A DNA stretch of 55,754 nucleotides from positions 1 through 55,754 of IMG/VR virus record IMGVR_UViG_3300020176_000019, one strand, 5' to 3'. Position 1 is the first letter of the stretch. Every line of letters starts with the position of its first letter. A program made the translations under genes and the position numbers. The notes under the pieces are model-generated. The model had not been told where the DNA came from and did not search any database. It was given only the letters and a program-made list of their open reading frames with translations. Source of the DNA: a virus. Below are positions 9,429 to 55,397 of this stretch, piece after piece.

Positions 9429-11216
9429 TCAGGAGAGTAGCGAAGCGTCAGGATTGTTGAGCGCACCACTGAGGCTCTTAATTGTAACCTGTTTCCTGAA
9501 TCCTGTACCACTTTCCTCTTTTGGTGGATCCACTGCAACCAGACCCATTCGCTGTCTGGCACAGTCGAGAGCCAGAAACGCAGCGTCAGCCAAGTCAGGT
9601 GATCGACCGAACCGACTCTTGAACTCCTGCTTTGATTCGATCTTCACCTTCAGGGATCCGGTTTTCACCATATCGTAGTTTCGGGCGCACATCTCTTGAG
9701 CGAGGTCTGACGAGATCCCGTAGATTTGTTTTGTCCGAATCAACTCTTTGCCGACGAACCACAGCTCGCTGACACGGTTCGTGTAAAGCTCCTCTCCAGT
9801 CAGTTGGCTGTTCATGCTAACACGCTTGTCTGAGGGCTTGCCACCAAAGGTCACCCGCATGAAGGATGACTCCCATTCGCCAGCCAGCACGTCACAGAAC
9901 GGCGCACCTGCTCCGGTGGAGTCGAGTGCTACGTTATCTGCGGTGATTCCGCGCCTCTTGCAGTGGTCGATAATCTGGTGAACAATCTGGTAGGTTCGTG
10001 GAACCGCCTTGTTCGTCGCGTCATCGTTCAGGTGAATCGCCTCGCCAAGCTTACAGACATACTGACCGTTACGGGCGTAGCCTACCTCAGCGGTGAACAT
10101 AATCGTCCTGTCACCTCCGTTGGTGAAGGCCGGATCGACGCCAGCCACCATAGTCGGCTTCTCGGCCCAATCGACTTCCCCCATTGACCCGCTCTTCGCC
10201 AGCTCCGCTTCTGAGTAGATTCCGGTGGTCTCGTCACTGTCGAAGAACACAGCGCGAACCATTCGCATGTAACCTCTGGACTCCGCCCCCAAAAGCATCC
10301 GGTCCTCCTCCAGCTTGGCGGCGGTCGGGAGCCACGGATACTTCTCTTCGCCTAAAAGGATATTGGGACTCCGCTCGCCGTCGAGTCTGAGGTAATGCCC
10401 CTTCCACTTCGTCGGCCATTCGTCTGCGGTCTGCGGGTCGATGGAATCCCACCCGTTTTTCGGCTCCGACCAGACTCCGAAAGCGTCGAATCGACTATTC
10501 GGGTTGGACATCCCGATCATCTGGAAGGATGGGTTCTTCGACAAGTTCGTAAGTCCGGCATTTAGAATAGCTTCAGAAAGTTCTGAAAGTTCATCACCAA
10601 TCAGAATAACGCGCTTCTGCTTGATACCAATGAACTTACCGATAGCCTCGCGTGTCTTGGATTTCTCTGCCGCGATAAGTGATAAGCCAGCTCTTTCGAT
10701 AAGCGTGTCGTTCTCATCGACATACGCTGCGTTTCCGATTGAATCCCGAATCTTGATTGGCGCACCATCGATCACTGAGAGGAGTGACATGACTGAACCC
10801 CAAATCCTTTTTCGTGCTTCCCGTAGCGTCGTAGAGGTCATCAGGACCAATGTGTCGCGTGGTTGGCAGAGCCACTGGACAATGCCCCATGCGGCCATTG
10901 TGTGGGATTTACCGGACGAAGCAGAACCACCAATCGCCAGATACTTGTGTTTAATCGCAGCCCGAACCATCTGTTCGGCCCAAGGATGCCGGACCATCAT
11001 TGGTTCCGGTAGGTCTTCGCGGTTCCAGAGTTCGTCGCAGATCCGCCAGAAGTAAAACTCTTTCGCCTTACCGTTTGGGTGGTGGGCGAATCCGTATAGC
11101 AGAGCAGTGAGGAGACTGGTCGGTTGGATCATCAACCCGCCGACATCCATTTTCTTGGTGGTTGGGTCGATACGCGGCTCTAGAACGCGCTTGCGCTTGT
11201 CTGCTTCTGTAGGCAT
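9429..11216 (-). CDS. terL: Terminase large subunit (packaging ATPase-nuclease)
   Basis: 595 residues. The N-terminal ATPase has Walker A GGSASSGKS (96-104) and a Walker B-like strand VILIGDE (D208, E209). The C-terminal RNase H-like nuclease has acidic residues in 'GVDPAFTNGGDR' (D361), 'ALDSTG' (D432) and 'PDLADAAFLALD' near 560. This is the motor that pumps DNA into the prohead through the portal and cuts it. The length is slightly above the usual 450-600. It is transcribed away from TerS with only 10 bp between the two start codons, an unusual arrangement. No Shine-Dalgarno site precedes ATG 11216. Confidence 0.95.
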   Translation of the reverse strand: MPTEADKRKRVLEPRIDPTTKKMDVGGLMIQPTSLLTALLYGFAHHPNGKAKEFYFWRICDELWNREDLPEPMMVRHPWAEQMVRAAIKHKYLAIGGSASSGKSHTMAAWGIVQWLCQPRDTLVLMTSTTLREARKRIWGSVMSLLSVIDGAPIKIRDSIGNAAYVDENDTLIERAGLSLIAAEKSKTREAIGKFIGIKQKRVILIGDELSELSEAILNAGLTNLSKNPSFQMIGMSNPNSRFDAFGVWSEPKNGWDSIDPQTADEWPTKWKGHYLRLDGERSPNILLGEEKYPWLPTAAKLEEDRMLLGAESRGYMRMVRAVFFDSDETTGIYSEAELAKSGSMGEVDWAEKPTMVAGVDPAFTNGGDRTIMFTAEVGYARNGQYVCKLGEAIHLNDDATNKAVPRTYQIVHQIIDHCKRRGITADNVALDSTGAGAPFCDVLAGEWESSFMRVTFGGKPSDKRVSMNSQLTGEELYTNRVSELWFVGKELIRTKQIYGISSDLAQEMCARNYDMVKTGSLKVKIESKQEFKSRFGRSPDLADAAFLALDCARQRMGLVAVDPPKEESGTGFRKQVTIKSLSGALNNPDASLLS

Positions 11217-11226
11217 AATTTAATAA

Positions 11227-11868
11227 ATGTCTGAAAAACCCATTAGAGAAGTCGAGGCCGAAGCCTTACGACTTAGCAAAGAAGGTTACAGTAATTCTGC
11301 TATCGGTCAACACATTGGAGTCCACCGCAACACTGTCCGTAACTGGCTGAGGAAGCATGGCGTTGCCCCGAAGATGAATGGGGACACAGCAGACGGGCGG
11401 GTTCTCGACAACCTGATTCACAATACCAAGATAAAAGAAGAACACCAAAAGCCTGATGCCGACACAGACCAGCTCAAAGAAGATATCGACGACCACTTTA
11501 ACGACACTATATCTTCTGCAATCGTTGAAGAAAGATTCAGGGCCTCGAAACAAGAAGACCTCGACCTCAACGAGATCGCAGAAGCCCAGAGTTCCCCCGC
11601 TGACAAATACCAGCACTACATAGCAGCAGCCGGAATTAAGTTGCTGAGGGACTCAATGAAAACGCTGCGTGGTCCGAAGACGATCCGCGAGATGTCAGAA
11701 CTCGACCAGCTCATTCGACGTAACTTAGGGCTAAACGCCAAGACTGGTGGTGGCAATAGTAAGATGCAAATCGACATCTCGATCCTGAATAACTCCAAAG
11801 CCGACAAAGGTGGGGGTGCGATCAGGCAGAAAAAAACGATTGACGGAGATACCGGAAAAGAGATTTAA
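11227..11868 (+). CDS. terS: Terminase small subunit (HTH DNA-recognition protein)
   Basis: 213 residues. Residues about 8-40 form a helix-turn-helix ('GYSNSAIGQHIGVHRNTVRNWL'), followed by an acidic linker. A helical segment 'ADKYQHYIAAAGIKLLRDSMKTL' and 'LDQLIRRNLGL' precede a C-terminal strand-forming tail 'KMQIDISILNN', the order seen in small terminase subunits of short-tailed phages. It should bind the packaging site and regulate TerL. It is the first gene of the plus-strand replication operon and lies head-to-head with terL, so packaging initiation is on the replication transcript. The alternative is an HTH regulator, but the C-terminal pattern and neighbour favour TerS. Confidence 0.75.
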   Translation: MSEKPIREVEAEALRLSKEGYSNSAIGQHIGVHRNTVRNWLRKHGVAPKMNGDTADGRVLDNLIHNTKIKEEHQKPDADTDQLKEDIDDHFNDTISSAIVEERFRASKQEDLDLNEIAEAQSSPADKYQHYIAAAGIKLLRDSMKTLRGPKTIREMSELDQLIRRNLGLNAKTGGGNSKMQIDISILNNSKADKGGGAIRQKKTIDGDTGKEI

Positions 11869-11881
11869 TCAACCGCTCAAG

Positions 11882-12112
11882 ATGTTTACGAACCGACAGC
11901 CAGAAATGAACCCTCAATTCATCACGCGAGTGGATGACGGTGCAGACTTCCGTTTTCCGGTCGATAAGGCTGACGGCCTTTGGTATCGAGTGATCCCAGA
12001 AACCGCCAAAGAAGTTTTTTACTTGCAGGCGTTGCCAAAAGGGATCAGAGTTCTTGTCCCTGCTGAGGGCGATGGCCTTCTGGTTAGGGGAGACTCAATA
12101 CCAACGAAATAA
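11882..12112 (+). CDS. Hypothetical 76-residue protein
   Basis: The start is set at ATG 11882, 13 bp after the terS stop; a longer frame from 11810 would overlap terS. The protein begins MFTNRQPEMNP and has a mostly beta pattern (FRFPVDKADGLWYRVI, IRVLVPAEGDGLLVRG). No family is recognised. It is encoded between terS and a short acidic ORF, so it is co-transcribed with the replication genes. Confidence 0.6.
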   Translation: MFTNRQPEMNPQFITRVDDGADFRFPVDKADGLWYRVIPETAKEVFYLQALPKGIRVLVPAEGDGLLVRGDSIPTK

Positions 12113-12114
12113 TA

Positions 12115-12288
12115 ATGAATACAGAATTAGATTGGCAGAAGTTAGATATTATAAGACTGTTTCTCTTGAACCAAGAAGAAGAGTTCAGTAACCACATCGA
12201 AGAATTTGGATACGATTCTCCCGAAGCCGAACAACTGCAAGAGGAGATACTCCAGATCCTGTGGGATAAGATGGAAGAAGTATTATGA
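12115..12288 (+). CDS. Small acidic helical protein, 57 residues
   Basis: Reads MNTELDWQKLDIIRLF... ending WDKMEEVL, rich in Glu, with an amphipathic helix. It starts 2 bp after the previous stop, and its TGA overlaps the next gene's ATG (ATGA at 12285), which supports it as a translated gene in the operon. Function unknown. Confidence 0.6.
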   Translation: MNTELDWQKLDIIRLFLLNQEEEFSNHIEEFGYDSPEAEQLQEEILQILWDKMEEVL

Positions 12289-12683
12289 AACCCGAAACCC
12301 TATTCCGTTTACACGAAGAGACGTGTAAGAAAACGCTCGAAATTATGCGGGCGAAGAACAGCGATTACTGCGGCGGCGAAAACACCGTCGATGCACTCGC
12401 GAACTTCAAGACCGCTCAATCTTTAGGTCTTCATCCGGTCACCGGATTACTGTTGCGGATGCAGGATAAGCTCATGCGGATTAAGTCATTCGTCAACGAC
12501 GGCGAGTTGAAGGTTGCTGGCGAGTCCGTCAATGATGCCTGTGAGGATCTCGTCAACTATGCGATTCTTGCGAAAGCCCTCTTCCTTGAAGAACGAGAAG
12601 ATCTTTGCGAACACTGCGGAGGTGACGTAGAGATTGAAGATAAATGCCAAAACATTCTCTGCCCGAGGTTAGGGTCTGAGTAG
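12285..12683 (+). CDS. MazG-like / nucleotide-pyrophosphohydrolase-type protein with C-terminal zinc ribbon
   Basis: 132 residues. The N-terminal all-helical part has 'KNSDYCGGENTVDALANFK', 'LLLRMQDKLMRIKSF' and 'ESVNDACEDLVNYAILAKAL', where E and D residues spaced along two helices resemble the metal site of the all-alpha NTP pyrophosphatase (MazG/DUF1599-like) superfamily. The C-terminus has a four-Cys ribbon (CEHCG...C...C, residues about 108-127), not usual for that family. It would act on nucleotides or alarmones during infection. The fold assignment rests on motif resemblance only. It overlaps the upstream ORF by ATGA. Confidence 0.6.
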   Translation: MKPETLFRLHEETCKKTLEIMRAKNSDYCGGENTVDALANFKTAQSLGLHPVTGLLLRMQDKLMRIKSFVNDGELKVAGESVNDACEDLVNYAILAKALFLEEREDLCEHCGGDVEIEDKCQNILCPRLGSE

Positions 12684-12684
12684 T

Positions 12685-12758
12685 TATATAGGGAATAGAG
12701 TCGGAGGAGATCTCCGGACGATGGCTTCTGTTTCTCCATTCATTGAACACCCTATATG
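12685..12758 (+). promoter_or_regulatory. Leader hairpin before the RuvC-like gene
   Basis: The 72 bp gap folds: ATATAGGG (12686-12693) pairs with CCCTATAT (12750-12757), enclosing an inner hairpin GTC-GGAG / CTCC-GGAC near 12700-12719. The last two paired bases are the first two of the start codon at 12756, so the start lies at the base of the stem. It may control translation. No Shine-Dalgarno site is visible. Confidence 0.45.
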
Positions 12759-13250
12759 ACAGATCTAATCATCGGAATTGACAACGGACTCGATGGCGGA
12801 CTTTGTGCAATATCTACATTTGACGGTGTTGTTATTGCGAAGACTCGCATGCCGACCATCCAGCTATCCAAGAAAAAGGAGGTGGATATCCGTAAGGTCA
12901 ATCAGTGGATATTAGATCTACACTCCTCCTTTGAATTAGCGATTGAAGAACCGCTCGCACACGCAAAAAGCAGCCAAGCCGTCCGGTCGATGGCGATCTC
13001 ATTTGGCAAACTTTTAGGTATGGCTGAAAGCCACCGTTATCTGGTCAAGCGTGTAAGCGTCCATAAGTGGCAGAAGCATATGCTTGGCCGGATTCCCAAA
13101 GGAAAGACCAAAGAAGCCGCCCTAGAACTGGCGGAACAACTCGCGCCTGAAGAGAACTGGCTCGCGAACAAACGGTGCCGGAAGCCCCATGACGGCATGA
13201 TCGATGCCTACCTAATTGCCACCTACATCTGGTCTGGAAAAAAAAGTTGA
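12756..13250 (+). CDS. RuvC-like Holliday-junction resolvase
   Basis: 164 residues with an RNase H-like layout: strand 1 'LIIGIDNGLDGG' (D9), 'LAIEEPLAHA' (E64 or E65), and C-terminal 'HDGMIDAYLIATY' (D145, D149). These match the four acidic residues of RuvC-type resolvases. Phage versions cut branched replication intermediates before packaging, which fits a place between the nucleotide-handling gene and the helicase. It begins in a hairpin leader. It lacks any extra domain and is near the family's usual 150-175 residues. Confidence 0.8.
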   Translation: MTDLIIGIDNGLDGGLCAISTFDGVVIAKTRMPTIQLSKKKEVDIRKVNQWILDLHSSFELAIEEPLAHAKSSQAVRSMAISFGKLLGMAESHRYLVKRVSVHKWQKHMLGRIPKGKTKEAALELAEQLAPEENWLANKRCRKPHDGMIDAYLIATYIWSGKKS

Positions 13251-13277
13251 GAATTTTCTGGACGGATTATTGATCGT

Positions 13278-13308
13278 CATTTATTTGTCTGTGCATAGAC
13301 AATAAATG
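13278..13308 (+). promoter_or_regulatory. Start-codon hairpin before the helicase gene
   Basis: CATTTATTTGTCT (13278-13290), a 6 nt loop, then AGACAATAAATG (13297-13308) form a 12 bp inverted repeat with one bulged T. The final ATG is the helicase start codon, so the start would be fully paired in the mRNA. This suggests translational control or a protein-binding operator. Confidence 0.5.
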
Positions 13309-14598
13309 AAGACACTATACGAAAAGCAACAAGAAGCCTTCGACTTCTTTATCGCTAAACAAAGAGCTGGCTCGAACACCCTAGACACGAGCCACGTCGG
13401 AACTGGTAAGACCATCGTCGCTTGCCACCTTGCGAAAGTATTAAACAGGCCAGTTGCGGTTATTTGTCCGAAAGCGGTGATCCCATCATGGCAACGCGAA
13501 CTCGCCGAGTGCGGCATCGAACCGTTGTTCGTCCTGAACTACGAGAAGATCAGGACTGGCCGGACAGACTTTATGTCTAAGCGCGGCAAGAAGATCATGA
13601 GGTGGGACTTGCCGGAAAACACACTTATGCTCGTGGATGAGGTCCACAAATGCAAAGGGCCATATACCCAGAATGCTCAACTGCTGGTTTCGCTCGTAGC
13701 TCAAGGCTACTCCGTCCACGCAATGTCCGCGACTGCCGCCGAAGACCCGACAGAGATGCGGCCAATCGGGTTCGCGTTGGGTCTTCACAACCTGAACAAG
13801 TCTGAAGACGGCCTCAAGAGTTGGTATGGCTGGATGATGCAGTATGGTTGTAGCCAGAATGAATGGGGCGCGTGGGAGATACTCCGTAAGTCAAAGCTCA
13901 GTGACCTCAATAAGGTCATGTATAGCAAGAACGTCAAACGCCTGACGGTCGATGACTTCCCTGATTCCTTTAAAGCGAATCGTGTATTCGTGGAGCCTGT
14001 AGCCTTTACCTCTGCGTCAAAAATCGCGAAGGCGTATGAGAAACTCGGCATCACGCCGGAGATCATCGAGGATTACCTACTCACCGGATCGGTGGACGAC
14101 AGCGAGTGGGTCCTTGTAAATCTGCTACGTGCAAGACAGCTCGCTGAATCGCTGAAAGCGAAAGACATGGCGGACATGGCTAAGGACTATATCGAACAAG
14201 GCAACAGCGTCGTCATGTTCGTGAACTTCTCCGATACCGCTGAGGTCTTATCGGGTCTGCTCGATTGCCCTGCTATTGTCGGTGGACAGACGGCAGAGGA
14301 GCGTCAGCAGATCATTGACGATTTTCAGGCAGACAAGCAGAACGTCATTGTCGTCAACATCGCGGCTGGCGGAACCGGAATCTCGCTGCATGACATCAAC
14401 GGTAACCGCCAACGGATCTCGTTGATCTCACCGACCTTTAACGTGAAAGATCATTTACAGGCGTTAGGCCGTATCCACCGTAACGGTGCGAAGAGCGACG
14501 CTATCCAGAAGATCTTAGTCGCTGACGGCTCTATCGAAGAGCATGTCATGCGCGTAATCGAAGAGAAAACTTCAAACCTCAACACCTTACACCAATGA
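13306..14598 (+). CDS. SNF2/DExH-type superfamily 2 helicase
   Basis: 430 residues. Motif I is 'VGTGKT' (31-36, in a 'DTSHVGTGKT' context), motif II DEVH (111-114), motif III SAT (141-143) and motif VI 'ALGRIHRNG' (about R389-R392), followed by a short tail. The motif set, the Q/His-type GRIHR and the absence of a strand-separation insert match compact phage SNF2-like translocases used in recombination or fork remodelling. It follows RuvC-like and shares its last 4 bp (ATGA) with the DnaA-like gene. Confidence 0.9.
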   Translation: MKTLYEKQQEAFDFFIAKQRAGSNTLDTSHVGTGKTIVACHLAKVLNRPVAVICPKAVIPSWQRELAECGIEPLFVLNYEKIRTGRTDFMSKRGKKIMRWDLPENTLMLVDEVHKCKGPYTQNAQLLVSLVAQGYSVHAMSATAAEDPTEMRPIGFALGLHNLNKSEDGLKSWYGWMMQYGCSQNEWGAWEILRKSKLSDLNKVMYSKNVKRLTVDDFPDSFKANRVFVEPVAFTSASKIAKAYEKLGITPEIIEDYLLTGSVDDSEWVLVNLLRARQLAESLKAKDMADMAKDYIEQGNSVVMFVNFSDTAEVLSGLLDCPAIVGGQTAEERQQIIDDFQADKQNVIVVNIAAGGTGISLHDINGNRQRISLISPTFNVKDHLQALGRIHRNGAKSDAIQKILVADGSIEEHVMRVIEEKTSNLNTLHQ

Positions 14599-50098: not shown

Positions 50099-50318
50099 AA
50101 TTCTGTTTCATGTATCCCGATTCATGCATCCTGAATCGTGCGTCCTGTTTCGTGCGTCCTGTTTCGTGCAACAGGAATCAGGAAACAAGATGCAGGAATC
50201 AGGAGACAGGAAACAGGAGACAGGAAACAAGAGACAGGAAACAGGAGACAGGAATCAGGAGACAGGAAACAAGAGTCAGGAAACAAGAGACAGGAATCGG
50301 GATTCAGGAATCATGATA
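50099..50318. repeat. Inverted heptanucleotide repeat array
   Basis: From 50172 to 50318 there are 21 consecutive 7 bp units without a single gap, most CAGGAAA, CAGGAGA, CAGGAAT or CAAGAGA. From 50099 to 50168 there are ten units of the opposite polarity (TTTCGTG, CGTCCTG, CATCCTG and similar), also in strict 7 bp phase. A 3 bp centre separates the arms. Short further units (TCC at 7-8 bp steps) lie at 50391-50415. Consensus CAnGAnn. The array is too short-period for CRISPR and too regular for coding sequence. Confidence 0.95.
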
Positions 50319-50645
50319 CGTTGATGCATTGCCCGTTCACTCTCCGGAAGAATGGCGAGGAATGGCGATGGTCATCGACATCAGCTTGAATCCCTGAATC
50401 CCTTATCCCTTTTCCTGAATAATTGTCTTGTGGAATCGCAGAATGTCTGAAACTCGCGTAATGGCCCCAGAATGCGTTCTGATGCGCTTTTGTCATTTTA
50501 TGGACATGGTATCGAAAGAATCCTGAAACGCGATCCTGCGCGATTCGCTGTTAGTCTGAACAGTAGAATAGGTGTTCGTTGGTCGTGCGTATATAGTGCA
50601 GCCATTTTATTGTCATTTTATTCAAAAAACTACTTGTCAGGATAA
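50319..50645. other. Non-coding stretch with paired TTGTCATTTTAT motifs
   Basis: No credible gene. The motif TTGTCATTTTAT occurs at about 50490-50501 and again at 50610-50621, 120 bp apart. Each starts with a TTGTCA that could be a -35 box, but no good -10 box is seen at 16-18 bp. The stretch leads directly into the folded-RNA region. Confidence 0.4.
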
Positions 50646-51084
50646 AGGGCGCGTGATTGTCTTGCGTTGTCGCCGCGAGGTGACGCCCGATCGGTCTCAA
50701 GCCCAGTTTGCAGTGGCCATCGGATGAGGAGGGGCAAGTGATCATGGATCGCCCCGTCACCTCCTCTCTCCACCTTCACCGAGTGAGACCGAGCCGCTAC
50801 CAAGCCGCCATGATTAAGGGTCAACCGGAAAGGACGAGAGAGGAGTCACCGAACGTAAAGAGGGCCGGACCCATAACGCGAGAGCGATGGGCCACCCTAC
50901 TACGGCCAGCGGCGCGGATGCCCCGTTGGGAACCATACAGCCGGAGCAGCTCTTGAGAGGGTCCGGTCGAGATCACAAGTGAGGGTCCGCCATTACCCTG
51001 AAACTATTCCCGCCGCTCCTTCCGGCAGGTTGAGTAGTCCGCCCCGAATCGGGCAGGTGAGCGGTTACCACCATGCGACTCACA
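50646..51084 (+). ncRNA. Putative large structured RNA (~440 nt)
   Basis: No coding frame of quality, but dense complementary pairs on the plus strand: GGGCG/CGCCC (50647/50684) over a hairpin GTCGCC-GCGA-GGTGAC; CGGTCTCA/TGAGACCG (50692-50699/50784-50791) enclosing GAGGA+GGGGC / GCCCC+TCCTC; GGCCGGACCC/GGGTCCGGTC (50863-50872/50959-50968) enclosing CGC-GAGA-GCG and CCAGCGG/CCGTTGG; then GCCG/CGGC, CCCGA/TCGGG and GTGAG/CTCAC near the end. Two loops are GNRA tetraloops. This density of long-range and local helices is typical of large ornate phage RNAs. The class cannot be named by eye; both ends are uncertain. Confidence 0.6.
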
Positions 51085-51148
51085 AGCTAGCCGCCTTCGG
51101 GCGGCCATAGCTCACAGCCTCCGGCCATGTCGGAAGTTGTGAGCTATG
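51085..51148 (+). promoter_or_regulatory. Leader A: two-state hairpin that can bury a start codon
   Basis: Three segments: AGCTA (51085-51089), CATAGCT (51106-51112) and AGCTATG (51142-51148). First with second closes a hairpin GCCGCC-TTCG-GGCGGC (51090-51105). Second with third closes an 11 bp stem CATAGCTCACA/TGTGAGCTATG that includes the start codon at 51146. The two closings compete. No Shine-Dalgarno site. The same design recurs in leader B. Confidence 0.65.
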
Positions 51149-51361
51149 AAAGCAAAAAAAGAAAAACACATTGTCTGGTGTCAAGTAGGCGGATCGGGAG
51201 AAATCGTGAAACTTTTTGAGAGTGATGATCTCGGCAAGGCGATCAAATTCGCAGATAAATGCGAAAAAAACCCGCGCCGATATTTATCAATCCATTCCCG
51301 TGATTACCTCCGAGGCTGGGGCATCGGAGTCGATGGCCCCTTCATAAAAAGTGAATCCTAA
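51146..51361 (+). CDS. Hypothetical 71-residue protein
   Basis: Reads MKAKKEKHIVWCQVGGSGE; basic start, then 'KLFESDDLGKAIKFADKCEKNPRRYLSIHSRDYLRGWG', a mixed alpha/beta pattern. No family recognised. It is the first gene of the right-hand plus-strand block and directly follows leader A. Its stop is 1 bp from leader B, so both leaders bracket it. Confidence 0.6.
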   Translation: MKAKKEKHIVWCQVGGSGEIVKLFESDDLGKAIKFADKCEKNPRRYLSIHSRDYLRGWGIGVDGPFIKSES

Positions 51362-51362
51362 C

Positions 51363-51455
51363 AGCTACTCCCGCTCCGGCGGGACATAGCTATCAGTCAC
51401 CAGCTCGAAAATGACCCGCCCTCTTGCGGCGATGAGCTGGTGATTGATAGCTATG
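51363..51455 (+). promoter_or_regulatory. Leader B: second copy of the two-state start-codon hairpin
   Basis: AGCTA (51363-51367), hairpin TCCCGC-TCCG-GCGGGA (51369-51384), CATAGCTATCA (51385-51395) pairing with TGATAGCTATG (51445-51455), extended by CACCAGCTC/GAGCTGGTG (51398-51406/51434-51442). The start codon at 51453 is in the stem. Relative to leader A, the CA/TG pair step is replaced by AT/AT, keeping pairing: a compensatory change. Confidence 0.65.
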
Positions 51456-54819: not shown

Positions 54820-54835
54820 TCGTTTCACCGTTGCT

Positions 54836-54879
54836 CCCGCCTTCGGGCGGGGGTATAGGTGGATTGATCAGATCAATCC
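54836..54879 (+). promoter_or_regulatory. Double hairpin after the CobT-like gene
   Basis: CCCGCC-TTCG-GGCGGG (54836-54851) is nearly the same as the first hairpin of leaders A and B. It is followed by GGATTGATC-A-GATCAATCC (54861-54879). No T-run, so not a standard terminator. It lacks a start codon in the stem. Confidence 0.6.
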
Positions 54880-55310: not shown

Positions 55311-55320
55311 ACCCTGACCC

Positions 55321-55350
55321 CCGCACCTTGATTCCTGTATCAGGGTGCGG
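55321..55350 (+). promoter_or_regulatory. Strong intergenic hairpin
   Basis: CCGCACC (55321-55327) pairs with GGTGCGG (55344-55350), extended inward by TGAT/ATCA around a TCCTGT loop. Without a T-run it is more likely a regulatory or stability stem than a terminator. CAATCAGGAATCAGCC just after it resembles units of the heptamer array. Confidence 0.6.
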
Positions 55351-55397
55351 CAATCAGGAATCAGCCTGAGCTAAATAAACTAATAAGAGAAAAACCA

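Follow-up and report, generated by a model that had tools for sequence, protein, structure and literature searches.

Two structured leaders in the window

The window is the whole stretch of DNA analyzed, that is 55,754 nucleotides of the IMG/VR virus record IMGVR_UViG_3300020176_000019. Two leaders, A and B, were located in it (Table 1), the first preceding a 71-residue protein without a family and the second an AAA ATPase; both ORFs are as described in the original prediction. The position of the leaders and the order of their segments were likewise borne out, namely strand a (AGCTA), a GC hairpin (P2), strand b (CATAGCTnnCA), a loop region and strand a' (TGnnAGCTATG), the ATG of which is the start codon. 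The nn positions, which had been claimed to stay complementary within each copy, do so in leader A and in leader B. The pattern CATAGCT-N28-58-AGCTATG is present twice in the window and in 0 of 100 dinucleotide shuffles, so that leaders with this long inverted repeat are not a product of chance. Both also fold far better than shuffled sequences (z of -7.7 for leader A and -9.4 for leader B).

A third GC hairpin had been placed at 54836 and does exist (54836-54851). The element represents P1 and P2 followed by a separate hairpin, and is common to the window and one relative. Since it has neither the CATAGCT/AGCTATG stem nor an enclosed start codon, it was rejected as a third copy of the leader.

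Table 1. Positions of the leaders, their parts and associated features in the window
Feature	Position	Strand	Remarks
Leader A, whole	51,085-51,148	+	Order a, P2, b, loop region, a'
Leader A, strand a (AGCTA)	51085..51089	+	Partner TAGCT at 51108-51112 (helix P1, start-free state)
Leader A, hairpin P2 (GCCGCC-TTCG-GGCGGC)	51090..51105	+	Sequence, fold, covariation
Leader A, hairpin P3 (CATAGCTCACA...TGTGAGCTATG)	51106..51148	+	Final 3 bases are the start codon
ORF behind leader A, 71 aa, without family	51146..51361	+	Stop codon 51359-51361
Leader B, whole	51,363-51,455	+	Order a, P2, b, loop region, a'
Leader B, strand a (AGCTA)	51363..51367	+	1 nt past the stop codon of the 71-aa ORF
Leader B, hairpin P2 (TCCCGC-TCCG-GCGGGA)	51369..51384	+	Sequence, fold, covariation
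Leader B, hairpin P3 (CATAGCTATCA...TGATAGCTATG)	51385..51455	+	22-bp arms with one mismatch; ends in ATG 51453-51455
AAA ATPase behind leader B, 368 aa	51453..52559	+	phrog_1297 ATPase, E 4e-25
Third GC hairpin with flanking stem CACC/GGTG, then GGATTGATCAGATCAATCC hairpin	54826..54879	+	Same layout, no start codon
Intergenic element E2, a-P2-b-P3-a' layout (CCTGA-hairpin-TCAGG-aatcag-CCTGA)	55313..55369	+	Two states 1.5 kcal/mol apart

Distribution of the leader

To search other phages for the leader, viral-contig DNA was scanned with a pattern and again in a relaxed second scan, prokaryote genomes were scanned as well, and whole records were searched with a covariance model. The two copies originally noted proved to be an undercount: 21 copies, each before an ORF, were found in nine related phage records (two in the window, two in L003, one in L012, five in L013, three in L015, one in L019, two in L021, two in L022 and three in L033). 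Every copy has a GC hairpin P2 directly abutting a long hairpin P3, the final bases of which are the ATG of the ORF. The close relative L003, in which both leaders are present, was found by protein search, while copy L033_1, with a quite different P3, was found by the covariance model alone. Because CRTAGCY and RGCTATG were fixed in the discovery patterns, these could miss diverged families, and the constancy of the lower stem (the foot of P3) is in part a product of the search. A further scan with a looser pattern revealed no additional phage.

Sixty relatives were fetched by their portal protein, the motif playing no part in the selection. Among these the leader is confined to a subclade, copies being restricted to records whose portal identity is 87% or more. 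At approximately 89-90% identity, five other records were without a match in the stretches covered, portal relatives at 82% or less gave no convincing leader match, and no diverged start-burying hairpin in more distant relatives was convincing above background. Pattern matches in L004-L008, L010, L011, L014, L016-L018 and L020, as well as most of those in prokaryote-genome contigs, scored weakly with the model and lacked a GC hairpin combined with an ORF at the ATG, and were taken as chance. A weak model match in L134 was discarded as a repeat within an apparent coding repeat. The portal protein itself had no match in 50,697 named phage records. The closest relative (97% portal identity) is located in a contig of an Opitutae MAG; this is only a hint as to the host, because no other genome among 286 of the class carries the leader RNA.

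RNA structure and covariation

In an alignment of 20 copies, 98.1% of the cells of P2 and P3 are paired, compared with 35-42% in slid controls. Changes on both sides of a pair were observed in 12 pairs and 40 cells versus 4.9 and 11.0 in shuffles, and 0 of 500 shuffles matched the alignment. Selection on the start-buried stem, originally argued from two copies, is thus upheld by strong covariation of P2 and P3, the latter overlapping the start codon in every copy. Across the copies the nn positions form one column with four pair types and another with two, plus a non-standard pair in six copies. On the sense strand 33 of 480 cells are G.U and 6 are A.C, which indicates that the paired strand is the transcript and favours, from the composition of the pairs, an RNA read in the direction of the ORFs over a DNA cruciform. 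The aligned copies show P2 and P3 as two abutting hairpins which, on this comparative evidence, are formed by the mRNA with the start codon at the foot of P3. P3 is kept in all copies, including those in which the alternative helix P1 is weak.

As originally stated, no named RNA motif of this form was found. Rfam gave no matches at gathering score for the window and six relatives, and nothing at E values up to 10, the best over leader A being psRNA14 with 24.3 bits against a gathering score of 60.

P3 is a nearly perfect duplex of 18-22 bp which recurs between genes, and as such it might be a site for RNase III or a similar enzyme, the polycistronic mRNA being cut in P3 and the 3' strand with the AUG being freed. 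Processing of the RNase III type is known in T7 early mRNA. After a cut near the tip, however, the AUG foot would stay paired, and the constant start codon at the foot of P3 would be left unexplained; we consider this explanation unlikely.

Burial of the start codon and the ORFs behind it

Based on ViennaRNA energies, the start-buried fold is preferred in all 21 copies, and in each of them the first two bases of the AUG have an unpaired probability below 0.1. The value for the AUG is 0.003 in leader A and 0.001-0.01 in leader B, for which the full 71-nt stem must be included in the fold, whereas the AUGs of the other genes of the window are mostly open (median unpaired probability 0.45). Most of these other genes start in open A-rich leaders, and a Shine-Dalgarno-like site was found in 1 of 26 versus a background of 14%. 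Since the phage does not use Shine-Dalgarno sequences, GGAAG/GGTGG in P3 was rejected as one. In these phages, which lack such sites, burial of the AUG should silence translation. Among bacteria lacking Shine-Dalgarno sites, structure of the start region is one of the factors tuning initiation in Flavobacterium johnsoniae (PMC6847099).

Fourteen of the 21 ORFs behind the leader have no relative in the set, and the only recurring ones are the ATPase (three phages) and one small protein (four phages). Those which could be tested are under purifying selection with dN/dS values of 0.09-0.15, the ATPase behind leader B giving 0.09-0.13 against its relatives; the ORF behind L015_2 has just 11 codons. 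The two copies in L003 have the same leader with unrelated ORFs behind it, and the 71-aa ORF of leader A is replaced in L003 by an unrelated 68-aa ORF. That the ORFs are mostly unrelated, and that the L003 leaders are alike, marks the leader as a reusable start-site module, independent of the gene behind it.

In close relatives the flanks are approximately 92-100% identical while the cassettes between the leaders, with their unrelated ORFs, differ, and leaders within one phage can be identical. These features agree with a DNA boundary sequence which promotes the exchange of gene cassettes by homologous recombination. A simple boundary sequence is weakened, however, by the covariation with sense-strand G.U pairs, which shows that RNA structure is under selection, and P3 does not maintain its sequence identity as such. 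We regard this role as quite improbable, and recombination at the leaders is likely a by-product.

The alternative helix P1

The leaders were originally described as bistable, with strand b pairing either with strand a (start free) or with strand a' (start buried). The first pairing, helix P1, does exceed chance: its summed helix score is 239.5 compared with 148 ± 13.5 for shuffled a strands (0 of 2,000), and Fisher's p is approximately 3e-5 over 13 distinct a types, neither being a clean probability because the copies are related and not independent. The balance of two states implied by the term did not hold, as the start-free state is less stable by 4.1-13.7 kcal/mol in all 21 copies. P1 can form in most copies; it is down to about 3-4 bp in L003A, L003B and L033_1, and L015_1 and L022_1 likewise have a weak P1.

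When growing 3' ends were folded at equilibrium, P1 was predicted until about the transcription of the AUG and P3 afterwards. In the full-length RNA the share of P1 is 3% or less, that is, the two states are not both populated, in calculations in silico which ignore ribosomes, proteins and kinetics. The energy deficit of P1, together with its loss as the AUG appears, supports in these models a closed gate with a transient competitor over a balanced two-state switch.

A true switch, in which P1 and P3 would both be populated and selected and the balance shifted by the occupancy of an upstream ribosome or by a ligand, is possible but doubtful. Apart from the P1 potential above that of shuffled strands, it is favoured by the alternatives GCTAT/ATAGC and GCTAC/GTAGC in L021, L015 and L033, where P3 tolerates both letters, and by two intergenic families of the same layout, E2 and E3, with states within about 1.5 and 3.2 kcal/mol, respectively. 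The start-free state is nevertheless the poorer one in every copy, P1 is weak in the five copies named above, and the exchange of a strands among copies was no worse (1041 of 5000), so that copy-specific coevolution of P1 is unsupported.

The upstream stop codon and translational coupling

The stop codon of the upstream gene lies 0-7 nt before the motif in 13 of the 14 internal copies and 25 nt before it in the other; as read from the printed sequences, it is mostly about 7-15 nt before P2. No close upstream ORF precedes the seven copies which are first in their row. Two very short ATG frames, which may be chance, were observed at such positions, the TAG stop lying within or bordering strand a in both cases: one of five codons at leader A of the window (51073-51090, MRLTS), and one in L012 (9545-9559, MDES), of four residues plus the stop.

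A ribosome terminating at the upstream stop codon would cover strand a, so that P1 could depend on upstream translation. Melting of P3 directly by this ribosome was rejected on geometry, P3 being out of its reach.

Coupling depends on a short distance between stop and start, and can involve structured downstream starts (PMC12548453). The leader might serve as an element for coupling or reinitiation, in which the hairpins fold out 55-90 nt and a ribosome ending upstream lands near the next AUG. The position of the stop codon fits this, but it also follows from compact gene spacing alone. P3 is, moreover, beyond the footprint of the terminating ribosome, which makes simple unfolding by upstream translation unlikely, and structure immediately 3' of the stop is reported to reduce coupling (PMC12548453). 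Since the seven first-in-row copies have no close upstream ORF, coupling cannot explain everything, and we consider it conceivable rather than probable. The leader resembles described coupling elements (PMC12548453) in that an upstream stop and a structured downstream start are close together. It differs in that the stop precedes both hairpins, and elongating ribosomes therefore do not enter the inhibitory stem.

A putative gate on translation

The leader is probably a cis-acting RNA gate on translation, that is, a module placed before many ORFs and closed by default. With its AUG buried in 13 or more base pairs, the ORF would by default be kept silent or expressed at a very low level. During RNA synthesis strand a could pair with the left foot of P3 (strand b) to give P1, which would be displaced when the AUG strand appears; P1 would then be at most a transient or assisted open state. 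Because a terminating ribosome would cover strand a in internal copies, translation of the preceding gene may influence whether the gate is open or closed. Candidates for opening P3 are an RNA-binding protein or helicase of phage or host, RNase cleavage, and reinitiation across the folded hairpins. The stability of P3 counts against the gate, in that it is hard to see how the ORFs behind it get translated at all.

It is a more speculative suggestion that the leader belongs to an undescribed modular class of cis-RNA control. A common three-strand layout (a, hairpin, b, loop, a') would recur with varied sequences between many genes within one group of phages; the version with the start codon would be closed by default and opened by upstream ribosomes or by a phage factor which shifts the pairing. 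As the covariation shows, one and the same selected RNA stem encloses the start codons of numerous accessory genes in a phage group. With this clean system one can ask how translation is set gene by gene where a genome has no Shine-Dalgarno sites, and how new gene cassettes come under control on arrival.

Comparison with known systems

Cluster K mycobacteriophages and cluster EF Microbacterium phages possess SAS/ESAS repeats (PMC3203893, PMC7302621, PMC12699233), which are likewise multi-copy and phage-specific, stand right at the start codons of numerous unrelated non-structural genes and are suspected to act in translation. The SAS sequence resembles an RBS and is 13 bp long; ESAS has inverted repeats, for which covariation shows no RNA pairing (PMC3203893). 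In contrast, the inverted repeat of the leader covaries strongly as RNA and holds the AUG itself, a second hairpin stands in front of it, and there is no Shine-Dalgarno sequence. A 13-bp GGGATAGGAGCCC-like sequence of the SAS type, 3-7 nt before the start, is absent from the leaders. The role of start-associated phage repeats has been an open question since the SAS/ESAS report of 2011, and the leader provides a structural lead on it.

Hairpins which sequester the RBS are found in T4 e, soc, I-TevI and segB and in Aeh1 mobE, the site being freed by a late promoter inside the hairpin (PMC2988022). The leader shares with them a stable mRNA hairpin burying the start region, as predicted for all 21 copies; it differs in enclosing the AUG itself and in recurring as one module in front of many genes. 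Timing of the T4 lysozyme type, with a promoter inside the hairpin yielding late transcripts without the 5' arm and a start which is free only late, has a precedent in the start-burying hairpins of T4 e, soc and homing endonuclease genes (PMC2988022). Apart from leader B, however, nearly all copies have short P3 loops, and no conserved promoter-like sequence was seen by eye between the P3 arms of the aligned copies; timing of this type is highly unlikely.

Three segments with mutually exclusive pairings around the start site are characteristic of erm/cat leaders and start-sequestering riboswitches. Compared with these attenuators and riboswitches, the leader has no leader-peptide rule, aptamer or Rfam match, and its start-free state is far less stable. 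The closest precedents are SAS/ESAS and the T4-type hairpins, and the leader has all the defining features of neither. It would work like a start-sequestering leader; its repeated, covarying form with the AUG in the stem, before many unrelated genes, is new to Rfam.

Other repeats and structured stretches

The intergenic elements E2 and E3 do not cover a start codon. E2 (CTTGAT...ATCAGG...CCTGA) has states within 1.5 kcal/mol in five sequences and was located in the window, in L015 (2855), in L021 (7558 and 7801) and in L092, L121, L133 and L118. E3 (CCTGAA...TTCAGG...CTGAA; CCTGAA-hairpin-TTCAGGGGTC...GACCCACTGAA) is intergenic, upstream of the following gene, with states within 3.2 kcal/mol in the three sequences computed; it is present in L021 (6412), L015 (1711), L022 (reverse complement, 9874) and L013 (2073). 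Since E2 and E3 share the layout of the leader, the layout itself looks selected, and this is the best reason to keep the idea of a switch.

A conserved, mosaic and apparently non-coding stretch of approximately 350-450 nt with several compensated pairs lies just upstream of the first leader (window 50660-51080; L003 5190-5652; L012 9180-9552; L013 95-435; L019 7170-7535). It has no Rfam match, folds somewhat better than shuffles (z of -2.1) and is possibly a large structured RNA. Lineage-specific tandem repeats were observed in the long non-coding stretch upstream of the leaders (window 50100-50340; L003 4700-4870; L021 4620-4860).

Further repeats were noted in other phages. The sister phages L081, L084 and L085 (reverse strand, about 9600-14000) have ACTAGTGNNCACTAGT palindromes between many genes, often over the stop codon and once within a coding region. 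In L109 (reverse complement, about 13950, 15450 and 17350) a CCCCCTAAAGGGGGAGGCTGGACTACGGTAGTTCAGTCTCCCCC repeat follows stop codons, and its GGGGGAG can pair upstream or downstream. In the sister lineage of L111 and L113 (reverse strand), CCTGTAACCTGTAAAATGA repeats are located immediately before start codons.
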